From Isoetes taiwanensis (lineage: Eukaryota > Streptophyta > Lycopodiopsida > Isoetales > Isoetaceae), in assembly GCA_021234155.1 (NCBI GenBank), contig JAJEKV010000038.1:10070092-10134091 (forward strand): a stretch of 64,000 nucleotides of DNA. Direction: 5' to 3'. A model generated the notes under the pieces. It searched no databases. It saw nothing but the letters and a program-made list of their open reading frames with translations, and had not been told where the DNA came from. How positions within the stretch are numbered: the stretch's first letter is position 1; every line of letters starts with the position of its first letter. This document shows positions 15,640 to 35,708 of this stretch, one piece after another. Both the position numbers and the translations under genes were made by a program.

Positions 15640-16414
15640 ATCATGCGGTGGATGTCTTCTAAGAGGTCGTTCAAGTGCATCAAGAGCGAAAGGGTGGCAT
15701 ACATCTTCAAGCTTGAGATTAGTGAGCCGAATCGGAAGGAAGCAAAGAAGACAAGGTGCTCGCAAGTTGTCGGGCAAGTAGCGAAGCCGATCACCGAAAG
15801 TTCCATGATCTCTTTCCAGATGAGATCAAGCAGCTCCCTCCTTATAGGAGTCGAGCGCGAGATAGCACTCGAACCGGGAACAAAGCCATCAAGCAAGGCT
15901 CCATATAGAATGACAACGCAGAGTTGCTCGAGCTAAAGAAGCAGCTTGCGGATTTTTTGGACCTAGGTTTCATTAGACCTAGTGTTTCACCATTTGGGAG
16001 CCCATTCTCTTTGTTAAGAAGAAGGATGGCGCTTTTAAGGATGTGCATAGACTATAGGCGTTTTGAACAAGCACACCATTAAGAACAAGCACGCAGCCCC
16101 CGCATCGATGACTTGATGGATCAGCTCCAAGGTGCAAGGATCTTCCAAAATCGACTTAAGGTCGTTATCATCGATCGGGATAAAGGAAGAAGATATCCAT
16201 AAGACCGCCTTTAACGCCAGATGGGCACTATGAGTTCACGGTAATGCCTTTCGGCTTATCAAATGCCCCCGCAACGTTCATGAGGCTCATGAACGACATC
16301 TTCAGGGAGTTTTTAGACACCTTTGTGATTGTTTTCTTTGATGACATTTTGGTGTATAGCAGATCCCTTGAGGAGCACGCACAATACTTGAGAAGAGTGC
16401 TGGAGAAGTTGAAG
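15640..16414 (+). pseudogene. pol (RT): Reverse transcriptase of the gypsy element, 5' part
   Basis: Conserved RT blocks are readable in several frames: PPYRSREIALEPGT at about 15835, ELKKQLADFLDLGFIRPSVS near 15930, CIDYRR near 16050, and an intact final stretch from 16244 with [18 protein letters not shown] and the catalytic FFDDILVYS at about 16333. The frame stops being RT exactly at LEKLK (16414), where the CACTA element begins. It resumes at 35709 with RHQLYAKLSKCHF. Joining the two sides after removing one AAG copy restores the RT alignment. Frameshifts upstream show that the gene was already, or has since become, defective. Confidence 0.92.
16412..16414. repeat. Target-site duplication AAG, left copy
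   Basis: AAG directly precedes the CACTAC terminus and is repeated at 35706-35708 directly after the GTAGTG terminus. Three bases is the duplication length made by CACTA transposases. Confidence 0.9.
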
Positions 16415-16457
16415 CACTACAAGAGAATGATTGTTAGACGTCAAGAAAATCGTCAGA
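16415..16457 (+). repeat. Left terminal inverted repeat of the CACTA element
   Basis: CACTACAAGAGAATGA, then GTTAGACGTCAAGAAAATCG, aligns with the reverse complement of 35663-35705 with only a few differences over about 43 bp. CACTACAAGA is the classic family terminus. Confidence 0.93.
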
Positions 16458-16805
16458 TAGTCTTCACAAAATATGCAACTGTCTGTATCTTCTGGCTGAC
16501 GAATTGTCTGACGAAGTGTTCCGACGACGTTATCCGGGACGCGGTAAACGCCGATTATACGCCGATTTATTCGTCGCTTTTTTTCGACGATATAACGCCG
16601 GAAGAGCGCCACATTTTTTCGCGACCTTTTCGTCGATGAAGCGCCAACTACATCGTCAGCGTTTTCGTCATAGGTAACGTCAGGACTAGCGTCAAAATTA
16701 TCGTCAGCTATAGCGTCAGAATTACCGTCAGCTATTACGTCAGCAAAAACGTCAGAAGATACGTCAGCAAAACCGTCAGCCATAGTGTCAGCAAAAACGT
16801 CAGGA
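16415..16805 (+). promoter_or_regulatory. Left subterminal repeat array (CGTCA motif)
   Basis: More than a dozen CGTCA words, often CGTCAG, are packed here. The densest run lies between 16660 and 16805, spaced about 8-20 bp apart; a few inverse TGACG words occur around 16497-16515. In En/Spm such subterminal repeats bind the TNPA protein during transposition. The right end carries the mirror array. The binding role is inferred from family knowledge. Confidence 0.8.
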
Positions 16806-16994
16806 GCTTCATCTACAAAATCATCCTCATTTTCGTTTTGAAAGGAGCAATATTCTCACTTTTATTTGATCCTCTTGTCTGAATTTTTAACTCTAAATCC
16901 TATTCGATCTTAGCAGATTAGGGCTGCTTGAATTTAATGTGAATTTACAAGGAAATAAGAGTGTATAAAACAAGAACTCTTTTATTCAAAGGTA

Positions 16995-17030
<36 letters not shown>
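16806..17030. other. CACTA left interior and (GA)n microsatellite
   Basis: AT-rich sequence leads into an uninterrupted GA dinucleotide run at about 16999-17028. Read on the minus strand, this TC run directly follows the SINE body, so it probably derives from the SINE tail. Confidence 0.6.
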
Positions 17031-17031
<1 letters not shown>

Positions 17032-17212
17032 TATTTTTACGTCGTAGCACAAGCCAGCATCTTTTAGGACATACGACGCTCCCTCTTCAAGGAGCACCAC
17101 CCCCTACAAGGATACCAGGGGCCAAAGGTCCTAGGATGCCAAGATCCTAGTGAGGCTCGAACACGAGACCTCAATGTGCTAGACGAGTGGACTAACCACA
17201 CGACCAACACGA
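17031..17212 (-). mobile_element. tRNA-derived SINE (Au-like)
   Basis: On the minus strand the head reads TTGGTCGTGTGGTTAGTCCA, resembling an RNA polymerase III A box, and about 40 bp later TGTTCGAGCCTC, resembling a B box. A body of about 100 bp without coding potential follows, ending in the TC-rich tail. This layout matches plant Au-type SINEs. It could instead be a lone decayed tRNA-like sequence, but the spacing and tail favour a SINE. No clear target duplication was found. Confidence 0.6.
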
Positions 17213-17418
17213 CCAGAATGAACAGTTTTTACAATGCCAATAAGAAACTTCTTTGAATGTTTTAGGCAACTTCACTCAACTAATCAGCTCAAACTGTCGG
17301 TTATTGAACACTTCAAGTCTCTGCCTTACATCTTTTATGTCAGCTTTAAAGGAGCTGGCTTCTGAATCAATGAACTCAAAATGTCTTCAGAAAACAAAAA
17401 TGTCTGACAGAAACATAC
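17213..17418. other. CACTA interior, unassigned
   Basis: Sequence between the SINE and the pyruvate kinase exon. It may be intron or downstream genomic DNA carried along with the kinase fragment. No coding segment is recognised. Confidence 0.4.
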
Positions 17419-17742
17419 TTTCCATGTGCTGTCTCTCCTGAAAGCATTATTCCATCTGCACCTTCTCGGACTGCAATTGCAATATCTGATACTTCTGCCC
17501 GCGTAGGGATTGGGCGGTTAATCATGCTCTCCAGCATATTAGTTGCTACTATCACGGGCCTCCTCAAGCTTCTGCAGGATCTAACAATTTCTTCCTAGAA
17601 ATCAGAGCATGAAAACAAAAGTAAGATAAGAGGAGATAATCAACAGAAAAGGTAGAAGAAATGTTTTAGGGAACATTGATACCTGAAGTAAAGGAACCTC
17701 CTCAACTGGAAGCTCTGCACCAAGGTTCACAAATGTTAGTGG
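17419..17742 (-). pseudogene. PK (fragment): Captured fragment of plastid pyruvate kinase, two exons
   Basis: On the minus strand the exon ending at 17683 reads NLGAELPVEEVPLLQ and has a GTATC donor. After an intron of about 88 bp with acceptor TTTCTAG, the exon 17594-17419 reads [10 protein letters not shown], then [12 protein letters not shown] and [20 protein letters not shown], then LSGETAHGK before a GTATGT donor. This is the conserved active-site end of the pyruvate kinase barrel, plastid-isoform style. The enzyme makes pyruvate and ATP from phosphoenolpyruvate. Only about 75 of roughly 550 residues are present, with introns kept, so genomic DNA was captured rather than cDNA. The frame is intact within the fragment. 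Confidence 0.88.
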
Positions 17743-18548
17743 AATATTTGAAGGCCAGATTATAGATGTTAGTATTTTTTCAAATTTAGACTTCATGTGC
17801 TACTGGGCCAATCCACATAGGATATTTCAAGGTCAGATTTAAGGTGTTGCACCAAAGCCCAAATCAATCACAATTTCTCTACCATGGTTTTAGATTGCCA
17901 AGACGTTTACCATGTTTTGTGGCACTTACCAAATTGCCAAAGGTTACTCCACAATGCTGGTCATATTTCAGAGATAATTTATCTAGTGCCACAAGGTTTT
18001 TATGCTTTGCCACCCATATCCTTATAGTGTGTACACAACTTGCTCATGTTAGTGCTAGGCAATGCCAATATGACATTCAAACAACACTATAGGTCTAGTT
18101 TCGGATCAAGAGATAAAGGCCCAAAAGCAAACTGCATATTGTATGTACAAGTGCACAGTAATGTAATTCTGCCACCAACTTTGCCATTAGAGTGCCACAC
18201 TTTCAAATGGTCACCGTTCTATATTTATGCTAAATGATGGACACCAAATCAAAAACGTAGAAATGATGCAGACATTGTAACCATTAATTTGTAGAAAATG
18301 GAGCCTTAGCCTGGTATCATTACCATTAGTACAGGATAGTTCAGAGCCAACATGCACGTGTCAATCCAAACATCTAAGCAGAAGTTTACTCTGAAAGCAA
18401 CCACAAAATTAGTTGTTCAGCAAATGGTTTGCCCATGGCTCAACTATAAAATATTATTGTCTTTGAGTAATATGAACTGCGGTCACGGTTAACCATTGAA
18501 AATATCAAAATTGAGGATAATCACAAGTGTAGAGCCACTGGTAAAGCT
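17743..18548. other. CACTA interior between captured fragments
   Basis: No coding signature is seen. Several lines on the plus strand repeat the style GCCAAAGG/TGCCACA, typical of decayed non-coding DNA. The breakpoints between the pyruvate kinase and HSP101 pieces must lie here. Confidence 0.4.
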
Positions 18549-18823
18549 GACCTCTTGCAAGTATAGGTTTGAACAAATTTGCAGCATCCATGGATTCTTC
18601 TGTCCGACCTGAAAAACAAAGTTGTCCCATTATGACTTACAATCAGCTTCAGTAATAAGAACCAAACACATGCAATACCAGAAAGGGAAGGAAAGAGATC
18701 CTTACCTGCTCCAAGAACATTTCTGATCTCATCAATAAACAAAATAACCTTGCCTTCGGCATCCTCTACCTCTTTCAACACAGCCTTCAGCCGTTCCTCA
18801 AATTCACCCCTATACTTAGCTCA
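18549..18823 (-). pseudogene. HSP101/ClpB (fragment): Captured fragment of HSP101/ClpB disaggregase, two exons
   Basis: Minus-strand exon 18823-18706 reads [20 protein letters not shown], then [10 protein letters not shown] and NVLGAG, ending at a GTAAGG donor. After an intron the exon 18608-18549 reads [19 protein letters not shown]. Together these are the Walker B region and following helix of the first AAA+ domain of ClpB/HSP101, the ATP-driven protein disaggregase. The family reading FIDEIH is altered to FIDEIR. About 60 of roughly 900 residues are present, on the same strand as the pyruvate kinase piece and the TNP1-like gene. The fragment ends abruptly after ARGQL, marking a breakpoint. 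Confidence 0.88.
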
Positions 18824-19281
18824 TTCAAATCTATGTCTGCACAGGGAATTTGCCTCCAACTTTCCATAATATTGAAAGCACCATAATATTTTTAGGTAAA
18901 TACAATCAAGCAAATACAATCATACGTCTTTTGATGAATATTTCAGCTCACAATCATCTACAAAGAGATATTAAAACATTATCAAACACGGTACTTATGC
19001 TAAAGCCAAATACAACCTGGATTAATTGAAAGATCATGTTCCTTACATCCAAATTATAAAGCCTCAAAATACATTTCAGAGTTAAAAAGCATCCGTGAAG
19101 CTACAATGTACATCCAAAAAATTGATCAGAGTAAAAGTTGATCACTTTCACCGCACAAGCAAAATATAGTTGGGAACCTCGTTTCCTGCAGGCAGTTCCT
19201 TCTTGTTCTTAGGGTATGATAACTAGGAAAGAAAAGTTACAACAAAAGCTCAAATAAACATACTTACTTGATTCTAAATTC
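18824..19281. other. Spacer 3' of the TNP1-like gene
   Basis: AT-rich DNA without open frames, between the HSP101 piece and the end of the minus-strand accessory gene. It probably includes that gene's 3' UTR. Confidence 0.4.
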
Positions 19282-21448
19282 TCATTTGCCTCTTTGAAGA
19301 GACTTATACTGCGCAATATTTTTGGCAACAGTAGCCTCAACAAAGTCCGGACTTAAGTTTCTACCAATGCCTTTGCCCTTCTTGTTTTTCTTGCTTTTCT
19401 TGCCTTTCTTTCTTGTTATGCCCTCTTTTTCCAGTGCTGCTGACCCCTCCTCTTCCACCATTTCTTTTGCCCAAGTAGGAGTCATATTCGCTTCCCCATT
19501 TCCAGCTTCATCATGCCCAACAAGATGTTCATCTGCTGCCTCCCTCTCGTCTACTCTATAATCAATATGGTCTTCAATTTCCATGTCCAGATTGCCTTCC
19601 CCATGCTCAAGACCACCTTTTTCCAAGCCATCAAACCCATCTTGCTCGTGATTAACATGCTCTTCATAAGGCGGAGGATAAAGATCCTCTTCATGACATT
19701 GGAGGTCATCTCCTATGTCTTAAAGGCGATCTTGATCTTCAGGCAGCTCTATATTTTTCATCTCCTCCTAAAATAAAATACAAAATTCAATTTCTGGCCA
19801 ATAAGGGTGTATATATGGAATTCTAAAATAATAATCTGGAAAAGCCACTTTGCTGTACTTAATCAGAATGGAGATAGGCAGACATGGAGCTTATAGAAAA
19901 AGACCAGCAGAACTAGAATTTAGGCTTACAAAATATACACAACTAATCTTTGCACTAGAATTCAGTCAGACAAGTAAACACCAAAGAAGCTACCTTCCTC
20001 TGCCTTTTCCGCTGCTTGTTCTTCTTTTCCCCCTTCTTGCCTATGTGATCTGCGCTCTTAAACTATAAAGCACAGAAGCCACGTGTTAGATTGAACACAT
20101 CTAATAATTTATCTACAAGGCCAAAATCAAATTAAACTTACGTTTCCTGGAACTCTCCCTTCAGCAATCAATGATTCTCTATACAACTTATATGTCCCTT
20201 TAGCTTCTATTTTCTTTAAGGTGGTTGCAGACGGGTAGCTGCCCCAATCTCGATACTACAAATGACACAAAATCAGAATTTATTGGTTAAAAAGGAGTTG
20301 GCATTACACAATTCTTACATAGTCTGCACGCGCTCCAGCAATACCACGTCTGCCCCACCTTTGCCTTTTTTCTCGTCGGGCAGCGGCTGCTTTTTTCTGC
20401 TGTGTATGGTCTGCCTTGCGACTTTCTTGGAATCTTGTCCAGACATCGGGCGTAATATATAGCGGGGCTGATTGTGCTTTGCTTCTAGTCAAATAGTCCC
20501 TATCAAATAACAAGAAAACAGCTAAATACACAATTTTAAAACAAGGTAACGATTAATTCAAATAGGTTACTTACTTCCAATGGTTGTACATGCGACTAGC
20601 CTCGTATAGAATGTCCCTTCCCATCACCCCTGGGCCAAACTTAGTGTCCATATGATCCACTATCTGTTTCTTAACGTCTGCTGATATTTGTTTCCAGCCC
20701 AAGTCAATATCTCGACAGAAGAATTTAACCGCATGGCCAAGGGCTTTACTCCACAATTGGCCATTCTCGTCCATGTGAACGCCACTTCCTCGGACCATTG
20801 TGACCTATAATAGGTCACAAAAAACAAAATAGAAATCAGAAACATAAAATAGCATAGAACCATATAGAAATAAAAAATATAAAACAAAGTTAGCAATCAT
20901 ACGTTGCGCTTCCTAGAAAGTCTTCTGAATGTCACGTCCTCGTCTTCCAAATTGTTTGGATCATCATCCTCCTCCAGCTCCTCGCTTTCTTTGATCTCGT
21001 GGTCTTCATCATCCGGGGCATTTACAGACTTTTGGCTGCAAAAGAAAACAAGTTAGTCCATCTACCAACAATTCTAATGCCAAAATAAAGGTTTCATATA
21101 CTAAACCTCGATCTTCCTGTGCTCTTAGAAGAGCTCGAACCATTTTTTTGACTCTTGGACGTCTGCTTGAGCTGTTTATCTAGCAAAGATTTGAACTTAA
21201 ACAATTCCCCTTGTGACATCTCGGCAAGCATATTCTTCAAGTCCATCGTTGTGCTATCCTCATTAGTGCTGCCTTTCCCTCGTACGCTAGCTCCGTTCTT
21301 AGACTTATTCTTTGGGGCCACTAAAGAGCATAACGAAGCAAATCATATAAGAGTACTCAACAAAGCAAATGAGGCAAGTGGAAGCAAATGAAATTATGCT
21401 GTAATACAAAGCAAACGAGGCAAGTGGAAAAATCTTACTTCTCTGCAT
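19282..21448 (-). CDS. CACTA accessory protein, TNP1/Transposase_24-like, eight exons, one in-frame stop
   Basis: The minus-strand model joins 21448-21439, 21320-21107, 21035-20903, 20804-20575, 20499-20319, 20255-20142, 20062-19994 and 19767-19282. Every junction has GT-AG signals and keeps frame. The start is a 10-base exon, ATGCAGAGAA, that splices to give MQRMAPKNKSK. Residues about 1-75 are basic and Ser-rich, followed by an acidic stretch. A core contains DLGWKQISADVKKQIVDHMD, ITPDVWTRFQESRKADHTQQ and a basic patch. These are the W..F...R....E style of plant Ptta/En/Spm accessory transposases, which bind subterminal repeats in the nucleus. Codon 333 is TAA (19722-19720), then the frame stays open for about 145 further codons with an acidic part and a Lys-rich nuclear-signal-like run (GKKSKKNKKGKG). 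The product is either truncated or needs read-through. Confidence 0.7.
19720..19722 (-). other. In-frame stop codon in the last exon of the TNP1-like gene
   Basis: The exon opens EEMKNIELPEDQDRL and then TAA. The same frame continues DIGDDLQCHEEDLYPPPYEE and stays open to TGA at 19284-19282. Conservation of a long acidic then basic tail beyond the stop suggests a recent nonsense change. Confidence 0.75.
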
Positions 21449-22950
21449 AATAGTGATCCAAAGCTACTGATATATGCAACAACTCCTGAAAAACAACAAT
21501 GAGGTGAGAAACAGTCCCTTTACGGATGTAAACCAAATACCAAGGCAAGCCAACACTGCAATAAATGTATTTAAATGTAAACTAAAGGAGCAAGCAAAAG
21601 CAAATGAAATTATGCTGTAATAATGATTTTTCTATTCCTTGATAGAGTAATATAATTTGGAGTGATAGATTCCCCATAAATTAGTGCACAAGCATAGAAG
21701 AGCCTCAGACAAATGGACATGTAAACAGAGAAGCAAAACAGCTATTGAATGGTGAAGTGTCACGTAGAATACATAAATAAAATGCATAAGAGTGCACACT
21801 GCTTTTTTTTATCGTGTGAGGTAGTGTGAACAGCCCATATTGCTGTAAAAATATCCATATTCACTTGATAACACCAGCAAAGATGTACAACAAAGAGTAG
21901 TATAATGCAGACTGCTAGCCCTACCGAGAAGCTATGAGCAAGTTTGGCAGTGTGCAGATCATAAAATCATAGAAAAAAAGACAACTTAGAACATCTAAAT
22001 TATCAAGTCTGTTCATTTATTCAGCATTATTATATGTAGTATTGTGGATAAGTGTGCATAAGCGTGCATACTGATAAAGGGTATCACAGGGTCAAAAAAT
22101 AATAAGTGTAGTAGCATACCAGACGCTCCAGTCAAAATATCTTTTTCTTTTATTTTATGGTGTGACGCAGAATGTGTAGAAATGCAAAAAACAAACAGCA
22201 TCCTACAAGAGCTACGCTGATGTAGCAGCATCTTGCAAGAGCTACGCTGATGTAGCAGATGTAGGCCATTATCCTTTCAGCATATTGTTCTAAAGAAAAT
22301 GTAGAAATGCATAGATGTGCATAATGCTAGAGGAAAATAGAGTTACCGAGTATAAACCAAGAAATTAGTACACCCAGAGGAGAATGGGCAAATTACAAAG
22401 TGGATTAAGAAGAAGAGGGAAGCGTATGAATTCATGGCCCTTGATTCAGGCTAAAAAAAGCTGACAGATATTTTAACAGACCTCCATTGTAAATAGCTAG
22501 CATTCATACGAAAAGGAGCCTGATTTTTAGTGCTCGTTCATGAATTTACAAAGCGCCCACAGCAGTAGCGATCACGCACCTCAATCACGAAGTTTGACGA
22601 TCGAACTTTGCAGCAGTAGCGATCTTGCACCTCGGGTCTTTGCTTTCCGGCACTGGCGGCAAATGCTAAACCCGCCAACGCGTCCTAAATCCTTGTTAAC
22701 TTTTACCTTGCCATTTCCCTTAGAATATTTTCCCATGGTTTTTTTTCCGGACGTTTTTTCCTTAAACAAATTTTCTTAACACTTTTCTAAGAAATAGAAG
22801 GTGTACCTGACGAATTCCCTGACGAATCTGCTGACGCACAATCGTCAGATAATATGAGACTAAATTATTCCTTTAGTTTTTTGGGCACTCAGGTTTAGGG
22901 TTTCTGCTATTGATTTTTCGTCGTCTAAGCTGCTGTAAAAACAAACAGTG
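21449..22950. promoter_or_regulatory. Divergent intergenic region between the TNP1-like and SET/Tnp2 genes, with an internal TGACG cluster
   Basis: The 1.5 kb between two divergent starts holds no coding segment. Repeated words (GCTACGCTGATGTAGCAG at about 22212 and 22239) and short GC-rich stretches lie at 22540-22690. At 22805-22848 three TGACG words followed by one CGTCAG reproduce the motif of the subterminal arrays. This lies about 100-150 bp upstream of the SET start codon, where a promoter would be. Control by the accessory protein is inferred; no TATA box is clear. Confidence 0.5.
22805..22848 (+). promoter_or_regulatory. Internal cluster of the CACTA subterminal motif
   Basis: CCTGACGAATTCCCTGACG is followed by two more copies, the last inverted (CGTCAG). 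The motif is otherwise dense only at the two ends of the element. It may be an operator-like site for the accessory protein, or a leftover end of a nested deletion derivative. Confidence 0.6.
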
Positions 22951-24356
22951 ATGAGTGACTCCAGTGATGGATCATCGTCCACTCAGTCTTCAATGCCGTC
23001 AATGGATGACTTCCCACCAATAGAAAGGTTTTAGCCCTCTCTCTATCTCTCTTTTCTGCCTTACATTTGGTATTTACATAAATAAAATTCATGATTGCTC
23101 TCAGCAATAGAGCTTCTTCATCGTCTCGCTCAAGCGGAAGGAAGGTAGCAAAACCTTGGCTTCGAAATGATCCATTGGAGCGGCTTGCAAAGCAATATGG
23201 CAATTGTTGGTGTAAAAAATGCAAAGGTAATAACAGAAGAATGTACAGAATAAGACAAGAACACAAGAGGAAGTATGGTTTGATGAGCAATGCTCCACCT
23301 CCATGTGAACCTGAGTTGAAAGCACGTCAAGAAGCAAATGAGGTAAGAAATGTGCATCTTGAAATTTTAATTTATTTGTTTTATAGCAAACTATCTAATC
23401 TACATCTACATGACTTGTTGTAGTATTTGGATATGCTTGACAAAAACCTTGGACCTGAAAAAAACCTTGGACTTGCCAATGCAATAGATAGTCCTACTTC
23501 ATCCTCGTCGACATCATCTGGCCCATTCCCCTTTATTTTTGAAGGTTCAAGTTCTAGTTCTAGTTCAGGGAATACTCAAGAAGTTAAGAGAGGACGCACA
23601 AGGGGAAGTACAATGGCTACAATAGTTAAGAGTCAATTTAAGAAAAGCTCGCATGAACTTATTCATCATTGTGAAACTGAAAAAGATATGGTTGATCAAC
23701 TCCCTCATCATCTCAAAGCCTCCATTATCCCCTTTGTTCGAGCATCCTTAGGTTGCTGGGAAGGGGAACTACCTCCAATGTTGGTAGAGTTTATGTATTG
23801 GGGACATAAGTACATGATAGCTCCTTCTCTAAAAATGCCACAAGCTGGAAGGGGGTTGTACATAATGGAGCATGTGAATGTACCATCTGGACACTCAGTT
23901 GTCTTGATGGTATACGGTGGTCCCATATACCCTTGGGGAATATGGCATAAACTTACTTCATTTATGCCTAGTATGTCTACTTATGCTATGACTTTGAATG
24001 CGGCATCTTGGAGTGAGCAAAGAGATCGCGGAGAAGATACTTCACGGGGCGCACTTGTATATATTGACGGTCGACCAAGTCTTCACGGCAATATTGCTGC
24101 ACTTATAAACAGCTCTCGCGGTCGCCCTGAATTAACAAATGCTGAGTTCGAAGAGACTACGGAACATGATCCACGATACATGAGTGAATATGTTGGACCA
24201 TACGTGAGGGTTTGTGCCATAAAAAGCCTTCATCCTGGGGATGAGCTATTTGTGAATTATCCCTTCAAAAGAGACGTTCCTAGGCGGGTACGACGCCAAA
24301 AAAATGGTGAACCTATTGTTGTACCCTATGGTAGGAAACGCCACATTAATGGGTAG
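22951..24356 (+). CDS. SET-domain protein encoded inside the CACTA element
   Basis: Three exons, 22951-23027, 23105-23342 and 23424-24356, join in frame with GT-AG introns of 77 and 81 bp to give 415 residues. Exons 1-2 encode a Ser-rich start (MSDSSDGSSSTQSS) and a cysteine cluster, CWCKKCKG, followed by R/H residues and YGLM, like the N-terminal zinc-type module of Tnp2 proteins. Exon 3 holds a Ser-rich linker and a SET fold at about residues 245-387: GRGLYIMEHVNVPSG, then YIDGRPSLHGNIAALINSS, then GDELFVNY with the expected catalytic Tyr. The usual NHSC box reads NSSR, so SAM-binding or catalytic detail may differ. SET proteins methylate lysines, often on histones; methylation here is unproven. 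The frame is intact. The gene lies between the TNP1-like and Tnp2 genes. Confidence 0.8.
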
Positions 24357-24512
24357 CCATGAAATGTTGGGCTCCAATCATTGTTAAATGATGACAAGAG
24401 CTATGAGTTTTTCTATATCATTGAGAGCTATGTATTTTTCTATATCATTGAGAATGATGAATGTTTGACAATACAATATAACATTGGAAATGATGATATT
24501 GTTTGGTATCTA
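24357..24512 (+). other. 3' flank of the SET gene up to the Helitron A insertion
   Basis: AT-rich, with TATATCATTGAGA repeated near 24415 and 24442. The phrase AATATAACATTGG at about 24476 also occurs just after Helitron A at 30780, so closely similar sequence lies on both sides of the insertion. Confidence 0.5.
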
Positions 24513-24589
24513 TCTATATATTCTATATATTCTATATATAATATAATAATGGCGTTTTATGATAGTTTGTGCGCAATCCTGCCCGTTAG

Positions 24590-25010
24590 ATTAAATCGAC
24601 GGCTGAGATGCTTTTAAAAGTGTTCTTAGTGCAGTTATTGGATTGTGGCCTGCACCCTTCCGGCTGGGTCGCAGATGAATCAGATACGCTGCACGCATCC
24701 GATTCGACCCTAGGTTTTGCATCGAATTCTTGTGGTGTTTTTTATACTGGTTATTGGTTTTATCACGATTGTCTGATTTCAGGACATCATAAGGATCTCC
24801 TTTGGACGAGCTATTTTCTAGCTTTGCCAGTCCATACAAACCAGGTTCATATATTTTGTCGTACTGTGCAATTGTCATTTTTCGTAAATTTATTTCTCAA
24901 ATACAGATCGTGTGGTGTTTCAGGCCTGGCTCTACCGGAATCACGTGTCGTTTCCAGCATTGGACAAGTAAACGGACTTTTATTTCTTCTTTCCTAAGGA
25001 TAAATTTTCA
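24590..25010 (+). other. Leader-like 5' region of Helitron A
   Basis: GCCCGTTAGATTAAATCGAC followed by GGCTGAGATGC is typical of plant promoter and leader sequence, and similar words lie inside the 5' ends of Helitrons B and D. A short open piece, AWLYRNHVSFPALDK at about 24925-24970, may be a small captured exon. I cannot name it. Confidence 0.3.
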
Positions 25011-25022
25011 TCAAATAAAAGG

Positions 25023-25318
25023 GTGGAAGCACTCAAGAAACTCAGACGTCTTTTATCCGGCAATCTTGTTCCACCTGTGGATGTCATGATTCAGGCTGGT
25101 GTGATATCCTTGTTGGTGAAATATCTTTCATTTGGCTCTTCTGAGGAGCAGGTACTTGTTCCGTTTGAGCTTTTATCTGATTTATCGTTGCTAAGCTTAT
25201 GTCTAACAGCTTCTAGAAACTGCTTGGTGCATTATGAACATAGCATCAGGAAATACAAAGGAGACTCAGTCCGTTTTAACAGCTGTTACAGTACCTCTTC
25301 TTATTGCACATGTTGAAG
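25023..25318 (+). pseudogene. IMPA9 (fragment): Captured importin alpha-9-like fragment (armadillo repeats)
   Basis: Segment 25023-25151 reads VEALKKLRRLLSGNL, then VDVMIQAGVISLLVKYLSFG and SSEEQ, ending at a GTACTT donor. Segment 25217-25318 reads ETAWCIMNIASGNTKETQ and VPLLIAHVE after a TTCTAG acceptor. These are neighbouring armadillo repeats of the divergent plant importin alpha-9 type, a nuclear import receptor. The intron is kept and about 75 residues survive, with no stop inside the exons. The sequence runs on directly into NIN-like coding DNA, so a fused transcript is possible. Confidence 0.8.
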
Positions 25319-25365
25319 GTTTGGCTTCTACAGCTTGTCATGAAAGATAGCCCAGGTTATTTACA

Positions 25366-27372
25366 AAATATGCACCTTGTCATGTATCTGATGGAAAGAT
25401 TTATGGTTTTCGTCAAGCATGTGAAGAGCACAGTTTGGAAACTGGGCAAGGTATTGTTGGAAAGGCTTTTTTTTATCAAACCAGCCTTTTTTTGTAAATG
25501 ATACGAGATGTTACAGTAAAAGAGAATACCCCCTTGGACATTATGCAAGGCTTGCAATCAGGCTGAGGAGCATATACACTGGCAATGAAAATTATGTCCT
25601 AGAGTTTTTTTTAACCTACTTGGACTAATTTAAATTCACAACATTTGCTCTTGAATGCACTCTCTCTCGCCATGCAACAGCATGTAAAAGCTTGAGAACG
25701 GTGGCGAAAGGAGAACTCATGGACGAGTCAAAAGTTTTGAGCGCAAGTTATCATTCAACCAGAATGTCTGATGAAGCCTTGAAATGGGCAGAACTGAATG
25801 TGTTTCATGTATCTCCTGGCGTGCTGAATCAAGAACATGCAATGTCACATGACGAGTCCTCATCTAGCCCAGTCAGATCAATCCACTCGAAATCTTGAAA
25901 TGGAGCAAGAAAGCCAACAAGATCGGATACAGTTGCGGCATTCAGAATCCTTCTCTACAGGCGTGGATAATAGTATCAGCTCAGATTACATTAAAGAAAA
26001 AGGACAGAGAAGAAAAGAAATACTGCTGAGAAGACTATCGGATTGGGTGTGCTTCAAAAGTATTTTGCTGGAAGTCTGAAAAATGCAGCAAGGAGCATCG
26101 GTGATATGTTACTTAAGCTTGCAAAAATTTTGAATTTCTTCTTTACCATTTTAGATTAGCTTCTACAATCTTTAAAAATTGTTTTGTGAATGCTCAGTTT
26201 GACCATCTCACGTGTTGTTATTTCTGAGGGATGGTCTCAATTGGCTTTCCAGATAACTTGGTTGCATAGTAGTGATAATTTATTAAACTCATAAGTTCAC
26301 ATGTAGTGCAGTGCCTCAGAATGATAGATACATGTTCGGTCCAGGAGTTCTTAGTTTCTGAAATTCCATCGTGAACCTTGCACAAAATAGGAAAGGAGGT
26401 CAGCCTTATAGATATGGAAGCATTCAGACATCTAGAAGTATTGTTCTTCCTTTTTTCTATTAATGATAAGAAAAATTTTGTGCAAATTTTGTGCATTTAG
26501 ATTTCCCTTATAAATATCGCCTATTTGCAACTGCAGTGTGTCCTACAACTTTAAAAAGGATATGCCGGCAGCATGGAATTTCAAGGTGGCCATCTCGCAA
26601 AATCAACAAACTAAGCAGATCATTGCAAAAGCTTCACTGTTCAGGGCATTGACGGACAAGTGAGAGTTAATGTATTACCAGGGGATCTTGCATCTGCAGT
26701 AGCAGCAGCTGCATCTATGGCAAGACAAAATGCAGGAAATATTGGCAACCAGGGCAAGCTAGGTGTCTTTGCAAGAAACCAGGAAATCACGTTGTCTTCA
26801 ACGTCACATTTTGCAAGTGCAGTAAAAATTGAATTTACAAATAGTTTATCTGCTATTATTACGCCACCACTGGATATTGTTAGAAATGGTACAAACGGAA
26901 GTGCAAACGGAAGGCTCCAGGAAGGCCAATCTTTTATGACAAGCTCTTTATTGCACAACATGATACCCACACAAGAGCAGAGTCTTGCTATCTTACCAAA
27001 TCCAAATATCCAACCAAGTGTAAATCCTTCTTTAGATGGTACAAATGCTGAAAAGCATAATGCAAGTCATGGAAGACGTGTGTGTGGATCCGTTGCAGCA
27101 ATCACTGCATTAAAATTCATACCTGAGGAGCGCTCTAACATCATTAGTAATTTGGAATGCAAATATGAGCCTGACAAAGCAGCAAGTTCACCTGATGGAT
27201 TATCAAGGACTAATCATCCAAACTCCTCTGCAGATTGTGGAAGAAGTTTACTCAAGAGAAAATGTCTCTAGATGATTTATCATCTATCACAGTGAATGCA
27301 ACCTTTCGTTCTGATACCATTCGGTTCAAACTCCCCTATAGCAGCGGTTTCGAGAAAGTGCAAGAAGTATTG
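25366..27372 (+). pseudogene. NLP (fragment): Captured NIN-like (NLP) transcription factor fragments: GAF-like, RWP-RK and PB1 parts
   Basis: At 25366-25617 the frames give KYAPCHVSDGKIYGFRQACE, GQGIVGKAF, REYPLGHYAR and AIRLRSIYTG, the N-terminal conserved region of plant NLPs. At 25998-26092 comes [20 protein letters not shown], and after an intron at 26537-26632 [20 protein letters not shown], a full RWP-RK DNA-binding signature. At about 27270-27372 SITVNATFRSDTIRFKLPYS begins a PB1 domain. NLPs drive nitrate-responsive transcription. Order and introns match a real gene, but stops, deletions (a piece between HYAR and AIRL is missing) and frame changes make it a pseudogene. It lies in the orientation of Helitron A. 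Confidence 0.88.
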
Positions 27373-27438
27373 CATATTAGATTTCTATATTTTCTGAGTG
27401 TTGCAAGATCTAAAAAAAGGAAATGGGTTTTCTATTAA

Positions 27439-28435
27439 AGAATTTTAAAGAAAACAGAAAAGTCTCTTAAAAGAGTATAGAAGAAGCTTGTTGATCATGA
27501 GAGGCCAAATGCAGGGATAGAATGTTTTGCAACATGAATGATACCTCTAATAAAGTATATCTGTAGGTCAAAGTATTTGTTCTTTTAAATGGCAAATTTC
27601 TCCAAGCACATCTGCTGTCTAGGTGTTACTAAACATAGTATATATGCTAGGTGAATTGTTCCAAAAAGGGGCGGCCCAGGACAAAATGGATCTTCTACTA
27701 TCATGCTAGCTTAAGTACACACATAATGGAGCTAATGCTGGAACTTCTGTAATCAAGCTCAGTCAGTGAAAAAAGACCTTACTGATTATGCTTCTGGTGC
27801 ATTCTATATGCAAAACAAAGTACACCACATGTTGCCGACCAATGTGCATGGGCATTATGGAATATTGCTGGAGAGGATGGATAATTAAGAGACCTCCTTA
27901 TTGGTAAGTTTGCTCTTTGTTACTCTTATCTCCCTTGCTCCCGAGAATGGTTCGCTGCAATGAAGGCCAGCTTGAGAACTTAGTGACCACTGACCAATGC
28001 TTAGAAGATCTGCCATTTTATGTAAGCTTTAGTCTTTAGGGGGCACTTCCTTTTAATACCTTAGAACTGTCTTTAAACTATGCAGGAAGCAGCTTAATCT
28101 TTAGCACAAAGCAGACAAATCTATTGATCATCTTCAGCATCTTAAGGTATTCATGGCTGGCCTTTACATTTGAAATTTCTGGCAGAAGAGAGATTTACTG
28201 CTTTGAGTTGCAGTGCTACTTATGCTTGAGTGACCCTGAATCTGCCAGCATGAGTGATCCTAAGAAGCTCCATGAGTGATCCTAAGAAGCTCTGATACTC
28301 AAGAGTTTTAAATGAATGCATGTTTAGCTAAGATTCTGCTTGAGCATCTGGGAATAGGATTTGCAAGGCTTTAGAATTATGAGCATGTTGTTTGCCTCCA
28401 TAAATGGAGTGGGAATTTGACTCTGATGGCTACAT
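27439..28435 (+). other. Helitron A interior, probably intronic or decayed captured DNA
   Basis: AT-rich plus-strand sequence with short open pieces and no recognised motif. A direct repeat, ATGAGTGATCCTAAGAAGCT, occurs at 28249 and 28271. Confidence 0.4.
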
Positions 28436-28438
28436 ATT

Positions 28439-28608
28439 AAGCTCAAGTGAAGAAGTGTTATGTGGATATTCTTGACAAGAACATTCAGTTCCGTCAGAAT
28501 ATTTGTGAGCATGAGGTAGCCAATATGCATGATGCACAACATTGGCAAACATATGGAGTTACTGAAGTGGAGCTGCAAGCAAGGACATATGTAATTACAA
28601 GAATTTAA
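28439..28608 (+). pseudogene. Coding-looking fragment, unidentified
   Basis: A continuous frame reads VKKCYVDILDKNIQF, then CEHEVANMHDAQHWQTYGVT and ELQARTYVITRI before a stop. Its amino-acid composition and length suggest a genuine exon captured by Helitron A from a third gene. I do not recognise the family. Confidence 0.4.
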
Positions 28609-30745
28609 TGGGAAATGCTGGCAATAGTAATAATAAGGAGATACTCTTTGCTTTTAGCAAGGCTTAATATCATGTATGTTTTAGCAAATTGCTGTTTAAA
28701 TTACATTATCCACTGCTCTAAGCAGCTAAAGACAATCTGCACCTCCTATATGTTTGTGGTAAAGGTAAAGCATAGTTAACGACTCTAAATGATCAAAAGA
28801 AGTAATAATTTCAATATTTGTTTTGCTTGTGCTTTAATGAGAAGATAATTTGAGGGAGTGATTGCATTGAATTTATTATACTGTTTTGAAGATGGAAAGC
28901 ATCCTGAATTAATTACAGGCATGGCTATTGAGTACATGGAACCACAGTTCCTAGGAAAATTTCCACACTTTTAGTTGCTTTTTGAAACCGACAATTGCCA
29001 TAATGTTTGTATTGTTATCATGCAACTGACTTTTTAATCCATTGTTCTTTATCTAGCATAAGGCTAAGAAGGTGAAGTGAGTGACCGGTGATAAAACTGT
29101 TTAACTTATATACCTTCTGGCCCTAGATTTATTACCATTATCATGTTAACAAATTCTTGATTGGATGCAGGTATAAACATCTCTCTTCTTATTGCTCTTC
29201 ATTGCCTTTATATTGGATGAAAGAATGATGGACATGAACAATACTCCAAGTGTTTTTTGATGATTTTGCCAAAGGATTCAGCAAGCTCTTTTATGGAATG
29301 GATCTACATAACTGATTGGGGATGTTGTGAAACTCGTCTTTGAATACAAATTATATCTGAAGTCTGGCATACATTTTCCATGGTAAAGAATATGTTGTTG
29401 AACATTTGCCTGTTATGTTACTGAATCAATCTCCTAAGAGGTACAACTTTGGCTATTTTCCAAAGAGTAAGTCCTTAAATATAGTATTGGACTAGGTTGG
29501 CAAATTCATAATATTTTGTTTTTTAAGGCAAAAAAAGCCATATGTAATTTATATTCGACAAAGAAAAGGTATTTTTGACTTATTTTGGAAGCTGAAAACA
29601 TTCGTTATCATATGCGTTTGAATTACTTTGTACTCATCTAAAAACAGATCTTGATATATATGTGACCATGGTTGTCCGTTTGTATTCTTCAGTTGGTTTA
29701 CATTTAAAGTAACCTTAGAGTTTGCTATATTTTCTGTGACTCCAGCTATAGTAAGATAGAATACAAGTGCAAAAGCATAAGCATTCTGTTCCAGCAGCTT
29801 GAAATATGAATTGGAATCTAAGCCAAAGTGTCTATGCTTCTGTTAGAGGATATTTAATTCTTAAGGTTCCAGAAGTACATGCAGGCCCATTTGGCATAGC
29901 ATTAGGCCCCAAAATTACATTAGTATTTCAAAGGCATCTAGGTTGGTTCTAGGTTTCACGAATCCAACTTATGCATTCATGCCAGAGAACTTATTGCACT
30001 CTAATATCACTTTGGTTGAGAAAGGTAATAGATCAATCCTCGAATATAATGACTGGCTTTAACTGTCCTTTATTTATTTTCAGTAATATATTAATTTTTG
30101 TCATGGCATTAAGATAATCATGAATTAAATTAGGGCTATGTAGTACTTAAAAGGCAATTTATGAAAGCAGGTCTATACAATTATAGTGGGCCACCCAAAA
30201 ATTGTTAACAGTGTAACCTTAATCATCAATCTTTTGTGCTAAGAAATGTGAAACCTATATAGAGGATGTAAAAGGCCAATTATTTATTTTCAATAACTAT
30301 AAGAAATAGAAGTTGCTCGATAAGTTTACAAGTTTTTCAGCTTTGCCTGCAATAGCGGGTTTTGTCTTCTATAGTTTTTATAACATACATATGAACATAA
30401 AAGAACATACTAGGTTTTCAACTTTAACAACATAGAAAGAAAATTCTTGCTTTTGCTAACAATGCATATTGGTATCATGTTCTAATACTTTATCGCGGTC
30501 TAGAATAAATACTAACCCCAACATTTGTCATTAACTTGGCTTCATGGTATCCTATGGATCTAAGTCTTGGCCAAGTCCTTTGAATGAACAATCGTGGAAA
30601 AAAAAAGGGGGAAAAACAAAAAATGTGTCTTCTAAACCCCATTAAGATGAGCCTTTTAAATTCAATGTTGCTATGAACACAAGAAACCTCGTAGCCCGAC
30701 TTTCTTTGCCCATCATCAATGTATAATGGCATATTTCCAACAAAA
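28609..30745. other. Helitron A 3' half, no recognisable gene
   Basis: AT-rich DNA with frequent stops in all frames, ending at the 3' hairpin. It contains no repeated structure beyond short T and A runs. Confidence 0.45.
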
Positions 30746-30773
30746 GCCCAGCAACGCTGGGCACTTTTTCTAG
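30746..30773 (+). other. Helitron A 3' terminus: hairpin plus CTAG
   Basis: A perfect 7-bp stem, GCCCAGC-AAC-GCTGGGC, is followed by ACTTTTTCTAG. The 11-nt distance from stem to end is the same at 44277-44304 (inverse) and 48886-48913. Confidence 0.85.
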
Positions 30774-30900
30774 TTGTAATATAACATTGGTAATAATAAT
30801 GAATGTTTGATGTTCTAAGGTTTGACATTTATGCCTGATAATAATAAGGATGTTTAAACATTCATTAACTTTCCTTTATTTTAACTCATTTACAAACAAA

Positions 30901-33900
30901 ATGTGTTATTTGCAGTCATCGGATGATGATGTCTCGTCTACTCAAAGTGACTTCCATGCAGAGAGTGGTTTGATGGAAGTTATTCAAAATTACTTCCCAA
31001 CCACTAATGATATAAATGCCAACGATGAAGAAGGAGAACCAATCACACTTCTTGAGAGAGAGGCTAAGAAACCACTATATCCAAATGCAAAAATATCACG
31101 CCTTGCTGCGTGCATTCTCATTCTCAACTTGCAACACAAATCAAGGTGGAGTAACAATAGTGTGGATGAACTTCTTGGGTGGGTGATTTGAGATTCAAAC
31201 TAATACAAGCTCCTATTCAATTTTGTTATTTATTTTTCTTCCTTGCTTGCTATATTTTAACTTTGTTTGATAGTTTGCTAGGTGAATATATACTTCCAAG
31301 CGATCATTGTCTCCCAAAATCACGAAGAGATGTAAAACAACTTTTGCAAGAACTAGGTTTAGAATACAATTGTATTCATGCATGCATAAATGATTGCATA
31401 TTATTTCGCAATGAATATAGTGACATGAGTAGATGTCCTAAGTGCAATGAATCACGATATGACGAAAAAGCAAAGTCCAAAGTGCCGAAGAAAGTTTTGC
31501 GGCACATGCCAATTATTCCTCGATTACAAGTTATGTTTAAATGTCCTTCCCTAGCATCATTCATGGACTTCCATGCAAAACACCGAAGCAACGATGGAAT
31601 TTTGAGATACCCAACCGATGGTGAGGCTTTGAAACATATAGAAGACACGTGGCCACATTTTAAGGATGAACCAAGGAATGCTCGCCTTGCATTGGGCATG
31701 GATGGAATATGTCCATTTGGCACGATGTCGTCTACACATAGTGTGTGGCCTATTGTTGTTATAAACTATAACATACCACCTTGGATGGCAACTAAGGTAG
31801 GCCATTTAATGTTAACGCTCATAGTTCCAGGTACATACCTTTACATAGCCTTGCCATGTATTATGTAGGTTGTGGCTTCTTAATTTAATGCATTGACATT
31901 TTGTAGGCAAATACCAAGTCAAGAATATGAATGTATATTTAGAACCACTTGTGGAGGAATTGGATATTTTATGGAAAGGCATACACATGTATGACATTTC
32001 GAGGCAACCACACAATTTTACATTCCATGGAATACTATGCTTCACAATTCATGACTATCCTGGATTTAAAGTTGCATCCGGTATGATGCTCGCATTTATT
32101 ATATGTTTTGTACGAGTTTTCCACTACAAGATTAACAATTTGAAGAATATTCTTTTGCAGGATTGCAAACTAGCGGATCATGTGGATGTCCATCATGTGG
32201 CCAAAACTTAACATCTTATAGATCGCCACACTTGTCAAAGATGATATACATTGGCCATCAAAAGTATCTACCCATAGGTCATCAGCTCCGTCATGGTGAT
32301 ATTTCTGATGTGCCCATGAGAAGAACTCCACATGATTGGTTGAAGACATGGAATGATCATGACCCAAACGAGGGTAAACATCCACCCGGCATGAAGATGT
32401 TATCTATATTTTACAAATTGGAATATTGGTCTAAGTTAAAGATTGCACATCTCTTAGATCCTATGCACATTTTCAAAAATGTGAGCCATTCACTTTGGCG
32501 ACATCTTACTGGAGAATGGGAGACTCTAAAAGCTAGGAATGATCTAAAGGATAAGGGCATCAAAAGTGAATTGTGGCCAATTGAAGAAGAGGGTAGAGCT
32601 CCTCGCTTTCTTCGAGGTCCTTGGGTGTTGAAGAAGGATGAACTCAAGCAAGTAAAATGCGCTATCAAAACCTTGCGCACTCCAACTGGTTATGGATCTT
32701 CCCTTAGAAGGGCATTTACGAAAGATGGAGATCTCACAGGCTTAAAGTCACATGATTGGCACAAGTTTCTACAGGTATATACATAATATACAAATTGAAG
32801 AAACATGACAAATGTCCTAAGTCCATTACTAATTTCCTTTTATCTTCAAACTTATAACCCTATATGTTGGTGACATATAATTTGGCCGCCTTATAACAGC
32901 ATATTCTTCCATGTGCCTTGGAGAATTGCCTCACACCACGCATTCGGAAGGTTATTTATAGACTTGCAAGCTTCTCTAGGTGGATCTCTTCTAAGCAAAT
33001 TGTAGCTGCTGATATTCCCGCTATGGAAATAGAGATTGTAGAGATATTATGTGAACTAGAAGATCTATTTCCCACCAGTTTATTTGATCTTCAGGTATAA
33101 TGTAGCTATTCTAAATAAATTTCGTGTACCAAACGCAACTAACAAATGTGATTATTAGGTACATTTGTTGGTGCATCTGCCGCAAGAAATATTGCTTGTG
33201 GGTCCAAACCCTTCAAGATGGATGTTCTTTTTAGAGAGATATATGAAGGTATTAAAAGGCTTTGTGCGCCAGATGGCAAGGCCCGAGGGATGTATGGCAG
33301 AAGGACATCTTATTGAAGAGACATTATTCTTCTTGACAGACGCCACTAAGTCAATAGATCCAAATGCACCAAAGATTTGGAAGAAAGAGATTCCTGATTG
33401 GTTAGAAGGCGAAGTCTTGCAAGGTCTAGGTAAACAACGGAGGTTAAGCGATGAAATGTTTGAAGGTATCAATAAATTTGTTGTGAACAATACAGATAGT
33501 CTTAGTAGGTGGGTGGAGTTGTATAAAATTGACAAGGCAGAAAGAGATAGCAATAGGAAAGCGTATGCTGCAAAGAACCGTCGAGGACATCATAGGAGAG
33601 TCATACAATACCCTCGAGAACTAATGCCTCTACCTGATTCTCCACCCCATTGGTGGTTATCGCAAAAGCTTAGAGAAGCTGAAAAAAATGGAGAAAAAAT
33701 TCAAGAAGATGACCTCAACATTGCATTTGGTTCTGAAAAATCGGCAAGTTCCTATTTCTTGTTGTCATCAATATATATTTTGCATTTGTTAACCATCTCA
33801 TGTCACTTTTATTTTACCAATCTGCAGGCTAGGTTCCATAATTCAATGTGGGCATATGGTGCACACTTACGAATTGATGACATTGACAAAGCTCGCGTCA

Positions 33901-34637
33901 CTTTTGATTCTGGAATCATTGCCTCGTTTAATCAAAAGAGTCAAGCAAGCATTAGAGATGATAATCCTATTGATGGAGAACTTGAATATGTTGGAGTTAT
34001 TACCGATATTATTGATGTGGATTTCCGATCATTTCGACAGACTATACTGAAGGCAAAGTGGTTCAAACCTTTATATCGTGGACGAAATCAAACAATGCGA
34101 CCACATCCTTCAGGTTTCTTTGAAGTTGACTCCACACATGTTTTAGTAGACAGAAGCGAGCCATATGTGTATCCTCATCAAGTTCAACAAGTTTTCTTTC
34201 ATGTCAACCCTCAAAACAATGCGTGGTGGATTGTAATTCCCACGGAACCAACGTCACGTCGATATATATGCAATACGACTATTGTGGATGAAGGGCGTGA
34301 GGAGCAAGAAGAAGAGGTAGAATATGAGCAAGTAATGGAATTTGTGGAGCCAAGAAACATAGCAGAACATGAGACTCAAGAAGGAACGAGCAATCAAGGA
34401 TTAGAAGTGTCGATGCATTTTGATGAAGATTCTATTGAGGAGGGAGTTGAAGAGGGAACAAACAATCAAGAAATGAGATCACCAATGCATTCCGATGAAG
34501 ATTATATTGAGGAGGAGGAAGATATTGAGCTCCAAACTCCAAATATACGACGAAGGCTACTCTTACAACTAGATGATGATGAATGGGATGACATTGAGCA
34601 TGATTTTGTGGACGAGGGTTTGATGCCTAGCGAATAA
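30901..34637 (+). CDS. TNP2: Tnp2-type transposase of the CACTA element, seven visible exons
   Basis: Exons 30916-31178, 31274-31830, 31907-32080, 32161-32774, 32900-33094, 33159-33743 and 33828-34637 join in frame to about 1065 residues. An in-frame ATG at 30901 could start a short form, but CAG just before 30916 is a good acceptor, so upstream exons are likely. Tnp2 signatures include LGLEYNCIHACINDCILFRN, CPKCNESRY, NIPPWM, a C-x2-C pair (CGCPSCG) and LLDPMHIFKNV. Later blocks correspond to the DUF4218- and DUF4216-type regions, for example LPQEILLVGPNPSRWMFFLE and YGAHLRIDD. The protein cuts and rejoins element ends in the nucleus. The C-terminal 100 residues are very acidic. The sixth intron uses a GC donor. 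No stops are seen. Confidence 0.92.
33744..33827 (+). other. TNP2: GC-AG intron of 84 bp in TNP2, in frame if retained
   Basis: The donor reads TCG|GCAAGT and the acceptor is AATCTGCAG before GCTAGGTTCC. Removal joins EKS to ARFHNSMW. The intron length is a multiple of three and has no stop, so retention would add 28 hydrophobic residues. The choice of donor rests on consensus and on the expected protein. Confidence 0.6.
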
Positions 34638-35349
34638 GAAACAAACTTTCATCTTATATTGAATGCATTTTGATGATTTGAAAATACTAATGTATTCCCC
34701 ATATATATACGTTCATACTTTGATTAAAATAGTATATGCTTTCTTTTCTTTTGTTAAACTTTTGTGCCTTTATATCTTAGGAGCTTGAACTTTTATTTGC
34801 TTGATTGGATATGTATGTGATCGTCGAGATATTAGTAAATTGCCAATTTACAAGAATTTCAAAATTACTACCCTAGCATCCGGCTACAATAGTTATTGTG
34901 TATTTATTAAAGGCACTGACTAAGTATATTTGGTTGGTTTGAAGGATGTAAAGTTTATGAAATGATTCGAATATTAAGTTTACAATAGGAATATAGAATG
35001 TGTAGCCTTAAGTTTAAGCGTCCCATAAGCGCATAAGTATGGGATGTACAAATACGAGGCCCATGAGATGCGTTCAAACACGAGGCCCATGACAACAACC
35101 CAATGCTAATGATATGAATAAAGGAAAACTTAAAGATAGCATTCTTACATACATAGAAGATGGTTTACCTACAATGCTCTAGCTAGGGTTGGAAATTTAT
35201 AGTTTTTTGCACCAAATGAGATAATCAAAGTTAGATAAATAGTACACCATTAGATATATCAAGGAGAGAGCTTTCCAACGCATCAAATTTCATAAAAAAC
35301 GGGCTGTTAGATCGAAAGTTATGATAAAAATTGTATTTATGAAAAAATC
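34638..35349. other. 3' flank of TNP2 inside the CACTA element
   Basis: AT-rich non-coding sequence, probably including the transposase 3' UTR. A pair of phrases, ACGAGGCCCATGA, recurs near 35056 and 35080. Confidence 0.45.
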
Positions 35350-35662
35350 AGTGTTTTGACGAAATTGCTGACGTTTTTTCTGACGAAATTACTGACGAAT
35401 GTCATGACGAAATGTCTGACGATAACTCTGACGCATGTATTGACGAAAAAATTTGACGATTAATCTGTCGTTTTTCCTGACGGTTAAGCTGACGAACATC
35501 TTCTGACGATATTCTTGACGTGATGTCTGACGCACGTTTTGACGTTATATACGACGTTTATCCTGACGATAATTCTGACGCAAGTTCGTGAGATAAAGCG
35601 TCAGAGTATTTTACGTCAGGTTACTCGTCAGTATACACGTCATGACAAGTTTTTTTATACAG
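35350..35662 (-). promoter_or_regulatory. Right subterminal repeat array (TGACG motif)
   Basis: About fifteen or more TGACG words, mostly CTGACG, lie between 35357 and 35600, with a few inverse CGTCAG words near the end. This is the mirror image of the left array, as expected for a CACTA element whose accessory protein binds both ends. Confidence 0.8.
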
Positions 35663-35705
35663 TCTGACGATTTTTCTGACGCCTAACCCTCATTCTCTTG
35701 TAGTG
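35663..35705 (-). repeat. Right terminal inverted repeat of the CACTA element
   Basis: The reverse complement reads CACTACAAGAGAATGAGGGT and then TAGGCGTCAGAAAAATCG, matching the left end with a few changes. It is followed by the duplicate AAG at 35706-35708. Confidence 0.93.
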
Positions 35706-35708
35706 AAG

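Follow-up and report, generated by a model that had tools for sequence, protein, structure and literature searches.

We identify an intact gene for a SET-like protein inside a complete CACTA transposon of Isoetes taiwanensis, and in diverged copies elsewhere in the genome the gene recurs directly upstream of the Tnp2 transposase. Purifying selection almost certainly acts on the SET gene, at a strength similar to that seen for Tnp2. As an explanation of the data as a whole, we consider it reasonably probable that the SET gene is a long-standing component of a CACTA lineage, with an N-terminus shared among its products and a role in chromatin.

A SET gene within complete CACTA ends

The element is complete within the window (the whole stretch of 64,000 nucleotides that was analysed), where it runs from 16415 to 35705 (19,291 bp). 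Its terminal inverted repeats are identical at 16/16 positions: CACTACAAGAGAATGA begins at 16415 (16415-16430, plus strand) and its exact reverse complement ends at 35705 (35690-35705, minus strand). A 3-bp target site duplication, AAG, stands on either side at 16412-16414 and 35706-35708, and CGTCAG-type repeats occupy both subterminal regions, in arrays at 16438-16805 and 35354-35680. The terminal repeats, the 3-bp duplication and a Tnp2-type transposase place the element among the CACTA transposons; the transposase is Tnp2 (PF02992) and not of the Harbinger type. The insertion site is a reverse-transcriptase frame (PF00078, E 3.1e-16 over 16184-16411), which we judge by eye to be of the gypsy type and to resume to the right of the element. 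Copies of a roughly 1-kb repeat, 74-76% identical, flank the element at 8404-9350 and 39388-40349, and the repeat recurs near L036, one of the related loci described below.

The SET gene consists of three exons on the plus strand: exon 1 with the start ATG (22951-23027), exon 2 (23105-23342), which contains the motif CWCKKCKGNNRRMYRIRQEH at 23205-23264, and exon 3 (23424-24356), which encodes a linker and the SET-like domain and ends in a stop codon at 24354-24356. Joined across GT-AG introns, they give 415 codons with zero internal stops. A sequence-only reading of the window had described just such a three-exon frame of 415 residues, lying between an accessory and a transposase gene inside the terminal repeats, and the exons at 22951-24356 and the mapped element at 16415-35705 bear out both the structure and the placement. 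All of the SET-fold motifs quoted in that reading are found in the sequence, with INSS at 24105-24116 and GDELFVNY at 24237-24260 of exon 3. The 310 open codons of exon 3 compare with a maximum of 169 in 1000 Markov-1 sequences of the same composition, and the longest open frame in any of six frames was 194 codons in 30 Markov-1 sequences modelled on the whole element.

The Tnp2 gene occupies 30916-34637 on the plus strand, its first exon following the acceptor cag/TCATCGG at 30916. Transposase_21 matches lie in open frames at 31170-31865 and 32136-32783, and matches to DUF4218 and DUF4216 fall within 33159-34637; the profile scores are E 8.7e-29 and 7.7e-8 for PF02992, E 1.4e-17 for DUF4218 and E 8.4e-5 for DUF4216, the last below its cut-off. 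Near the left end, on the strand opposite to the SET gene, several short open exons form an accessory gene region (19282-21342, minus strand) that may be a TNP1-like partner. The pieces of this region that were scanned gave no Pfam family and no match to any of the genome loci L001-L028. The element further holds a pyruvate kinase barrel piece (17382-17594, minus strand; PF00224, E 2e-23), an AAA-type piece (18542-18820, minus strand; E 0.0019, below cut-off), an ARM-type piece (25002-25313, plus strand; E 0.0069, below cut-off) and a frame at about 26540-26620 (plus strand) that by eye we take to resemble an RWP-RK (NIN-like) piece.

Homologues, SET assignment and the NSS motif

A search of the genome with PF00856 gave at least 72 matches when 150 of 521 candidates were scored, and the window copy was not among the matches listed. 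We read 38 of the 72 listed matches: eight loci (L001-L008), 20 stretches covering 10 kb each and a further 10 covering 2 kb each. An open frame of around 275 codons was the main criterion for choosing a stretch, and the resulting counts are lower bounds. Homologues of the window SET gene occur in 23 of the 38 regions (16 of the 20 stretches of 10 kb, seven of the 10 of 2 kb and none of L001-L008), the first 16 having tblastn identities of 30-42% to the window copy over the aligned parts. Subfamily A comprises the window copy and L036, which share 80% identity over 195 residues; subfamily B takes in 13 of the 16 loci with 10-kb context; subfamily C includes L019-L021 together with L029-L031 and L035; and L033 represents a further, separate SET subfamily. 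The exon-3 frame is open over 274 codons or more in 10 of the 16 and broken or cut in six, and the 5' part differs at L011. L002-L005 (G000 C1038, C1019, C1072 and C1100) are mutually similar, long single-frame SET genes of 781-975 open codons with NHSC, and have the appearance of a host SET family with few introns. The window protein as a single query gave no homologues in other organisms, and the plasmid collection gave no match; profile queries outside this genome, each limited to scoring the roughly 7,990 candidates with the most words in common, matched P0001-P0004, of which P0003 is a EukProt entry.

Run against PF00856, a check that the sequence-only reading had proposed, the window protein scores 21.8 bits (E 2.7e-4), and a SET call from this copy alone is weak because the score falls under the curated cut-off of 22.4 bits. 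Its relatives do better: of eight tested, seven score 24.4-32.6 bits (L019 32.6, L036 29.6), P0003 falling below the cut-off at 20.3, and each of the 11 sequences in alignment A1 hits the profile at E 0.1 or better (best 1.1e-7). From these profile matches, we regard the assignment to SET as good at the family level, with the window copy just under the threshold. AF2 models from two alignments were poor (pLDDT 43 and 44). A sequence search of the PDB returned no match for the window protein and nothing relevant for L019, and a profile search of the PDB returned nothing significant, its best E of 0.026 belonging to a bacterial effector SET domain (8sr6, 5czy), followed by MLL SET domains.

The GxG motif, GN and the C-terminal Tyr motif are all present, both in an alignment with SET genes of the genome and among the invariant columns. 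The NHS box reads NSS in all 23 homologous loci, whereas NHS was found in all eight other SET loci of the same genome, L001-L008, six of which had been picked by a pattern demanding NH and the other two read separately. The earlier description of an NHSC box altered to NSSR thus holds for the NSS itself but not as a local alteration, since the 23 loci share it; decay of the window copy is ruled out on the same evidence, and NSS is therefore ancestral. Because the canonical NHS(C) box is absent, we do not file the family as a canonical catalytic SET enzyme.

Linkage to Tnp2 and selection on the SET gene

In 14 of the 16 loci that have 10-kb context, the SET gene is followed on its own strand by the Tnp2 exons, in the same order. 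Because the regions were selected by SET matches, the sampling did not impose this linkage; for the same reason, it covers SET-carrying copies only and is a partial run of the refuting check named in the sequence-only reading, other family copies lacking the gene at this place. Tnp2 was not found with SET at L010, L018 or L036 within the stretch read at each, and at L014 Tnp2 matches PF02992 at E 2.7e-56. A CACTA-type left end, beginning CACTACAAGGGAT or CACTACTAGAGAATG, stands upstream of SET in 11 of the 16 loci, with differing flanks and, at L015, altered first bases. No right end was found at L017 or L020 after 4.5 kb more sequence, and both ends are demonstrated in the window element only. 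The neighbours of L020 are, by eye, copia-like pol frames.

At L018, counted in SET orientation, homology to the other copies stops at about 5185, just past the splice acceptor and within a few bases of the beginning of the first Tnp2 exon. L036 (660-1244, minus strand; taken together with L039 and L040) becomes homologous to the window precisely at an AG (cag/GAACTACC); the sequence upstream is a different one, no Tnp2 occurs in the 12.2 kb read, and the frame is open and strongly conserved. L036 is possibly a differently spliced or exapted gene.

A comparison of dN/dS among copies, also proposed in the sequence-only reading, points to constraint. Omega for the SET gene is 0.124 between the window and L036 (bootstrap 0.07-0.20; 195 codons), with differences per codon position of 26/16/73; 0.23 between L017 and L023 (bootstrap 0.14-0.37); and 0.17 between L019 and L030 (0.09-0.29), a single stop in L030 being skipped. 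More diverged pairs give 0.12-0.25 and closer pairs 0.25-0.35, the latter with wide intervals, some of which reach 1. For the Tnp2 core, omega is 0.20-0.68 in seven B pairs, where the SET exon gives 0.25-0.53, and 0.21-0.34 in two C pairs; individual Tnp2 values include 0.33 for L014-L017 and 0.20 for L014-L023. Omega between subfamilies was left unused because dS is saturated.

Identities of the two genes run in parallel: for B-C, window-B and window-C they are 47, 36 and 42% in SET and 53, 46 and 48% in Tnp2. The simplest reading of this parallel is that SET was acquired before the subfamilies separated and was then passed on with Tnp2. A one-off host capture is rejected on the Tnp2 linkage (14/16) together with omega. 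Of the earlier idea that the element carries its own chromatin modifier, what the linkage and omega support is a selected component of a CACTA lineage; modification of chromatin by its product, an action against silencing and a chemistry altered by NSS are proposals.

The N-terminal exon, possible roles and known systems

The three-exon layout is also read in L017, L023 and L019, and exon 3 starts in phase 0. Exon 2 encodes CxCxxC...H. Exons 1-2 of subfamily C match PF13963 (Transpos_assoc) at E 9.4e-5 and 22.9 bits, below the cut-off of 27.7, and those of subfamily B at E 0.068; the N-terminus of the window SET protein alone gave zero Pfam matches. PF13963 is usually the N-terminus of Tnp2. 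The form C.C..C..H is not rare, with five stop-free matches in six frames across the whole window, yet exon 2 is its sole match upstream of Tnp2 in six frames in both L017 and L020, and its only stop-free match in the window element up to 30916. By pattern search, the first Tnp2 exon begins at an AG in phase 0 in eight of 13 B and all three C copies, and an in-frame stop stands just upstream of it in all four copies displayed.

We propose that exon 2, with its Transpos_assoc-like zinc motif, would be spliced in phase 0 to the SET exon, yielding a Transpos_assoc-SET protein, or alternatively past the SET exon to the Tnp2 exons, yielding the transposase. Since exon 2 and the SET exon are only about 80-90 bp apart, the second product would need exon skipping, a point against the proposal. 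The common N-terminus, or its zinc motif, would direct the SET protein to DNA and repeats of the element itself. Acting there on histones (or a bound partner) by methylation, binding or shielding, it might allow copies of the element to stay expressible or transposable. We give splicing of exons 1-2 to either SET or Tnp2 a little less than an even chance. A chromatin role for the SET protein we would place at about the same level. The complete scheme, in which one DNA-binding exon serves two splice products, a transposase and a self-targeted NSS-type SET protein that rewrites chromatin on the element's own copies, is unlikely to hold in every part.

The evidence for exon sharing must be set against another arrangement, in which SET and Tnp2 are separately started genes or form a SET-Tnp2 fusion through a donor inside the SET exon. 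The window has an in-frame ATG five codons before the start of its Tnp2 exon, with no intervening stop, and in subfamily B the sixth codon of that exon is itself an ATG; Tnp2 could therefore start independently, and the window ATG makes shared-exon splicing less likely. A sequence CGG/GTACGA near the end of the window SET exon could serve the fusion. Over its opening 41 codons the Tnp2 exon gives an omega of about 1.4 in three pairs with L023 (11-12 nonsynonymous and 2 synonymous differences), which does not support constraint there. Subfamily C, however, has no ATG at the start of its first Tnp2 exon and, by eye, no in-phase donor near its SET stop, and the Transpos_assoc-like motif is confined to exon 2. 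We consider this arrangement a serious contender that stays somewhat short of probable.

Other alternatives concern what the SET protein does. It might have a SET fold but no methyltransferase activity and, bound to histone tails, to SAM or to the transposase, serve as a TNPA-like cofactor with an architectural or regulatory part; the His of NHS is Ser in every homologous locus, a motif fixed without drift that makes catalysis uncertain, and En/Spm is described as employing a second DNA-binding protein, TNPA (PMC2613891). The retention of GxG, GN, the Asn of NHS and the Tyr of GDELF..Y instead argues that the SAM site and the active site are conserved, which leaves a non-enzymatic protein quite possible at a chance well below even. 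The SET gene might also be a host gene fragment captured in Pack-CACTA style, a passenger with no role in the element: gene capture by CACTA elements is known (PMC13317346), and this element does carry other host-like pieces, from pyruvate kinase, AAA-like and ARM-like sequence. Yet the gene is intact, precedes Tnp2 in diverged copies and is constrained by omega, and we hold a passenger to be very improbable. It is also conceivable that the protein would lay a repressive mark that restrains the element, rather than acting against silencing. Self-restraint is known for transposons in general; the histone mark cannot be read from sequence, however, so nothing favours either direction, and we rate a silencing helper as improbable.

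Returning to a selected SET component with a chromatin role, plant transposons are silenced via histone and DNA marks, and to our knowledge few of them encode anything that acts on such marks. Our data suggest that this element may carry its own tool for handling the chromatin that silences it. With a selected SET protein in a CACTA lineage, the arms-race idea can be put to a direct test, and exon 2, if shared with the transposase, would offer an element a simple route to targeting its own copies with an effector.

SETMAR likewise joins SET and a transposase in one locus, but there a host gene of primates has been fused to a transposase of the mariner type, and the locus is not a mobile component. 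VANC, which is not a SET protein, is encoded by the VANDAL elements. It is described as a plant DNA transposon protein that acts on its own silencing (PMC13317346); VANDALs are MULEs, unlike the CACTA element here, for which anti-silencing would be a proposal. TET/JBP genes are reported from EnSpm and other transposons of fungi (PMC12730594), and they too place a mark-editing enzyme on CACTA-type and other elements, but the enzyme is a dioxygenase acting on 5mC, in fungi, and not a SET protein. En/Spm (tnpA/tnpD) and soybean Tgmt* are described as obtaining two proteins through alternative splicing of a single gene (PMC2613891), which is comparable to the splicing proposed here and speaks for it. 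They have CACTA ends and a Tnp2 transposase in common with our element, where a second product by splicing is only inferred; their second protein is a DNA binder, with no SET domain mentioned in the part of that source available to us. Kojima and Jurka (2014, cited in PMC12730594) reported SET genes themselves from Phytophthora, in transposons of the HarbingerS and MuDR kinds. These are likewise DNA transposons with an acquired SET gene but, going by the citing description, they belong to other transposase superfamilies and other hosts, whereas the transposase here is Tnp2 (PF02992). The literature searched, with few subscription papers and no Repbase Reports, held no CACTA element with a SET gene, and the whole word SET is absent from the accessible part of a 2026 review of plant gene capture (PMC13317346). 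With SET already described in the Phytophthora elements and none found in CACTA, it is the SET-carrying CACTA element that appears to be new; new beyond the sequence-only reading are the shared three-exon layout, the Transpos_assoc-like exon 2 in the relatives and the possibility that Tnp2 uses that exon as well.
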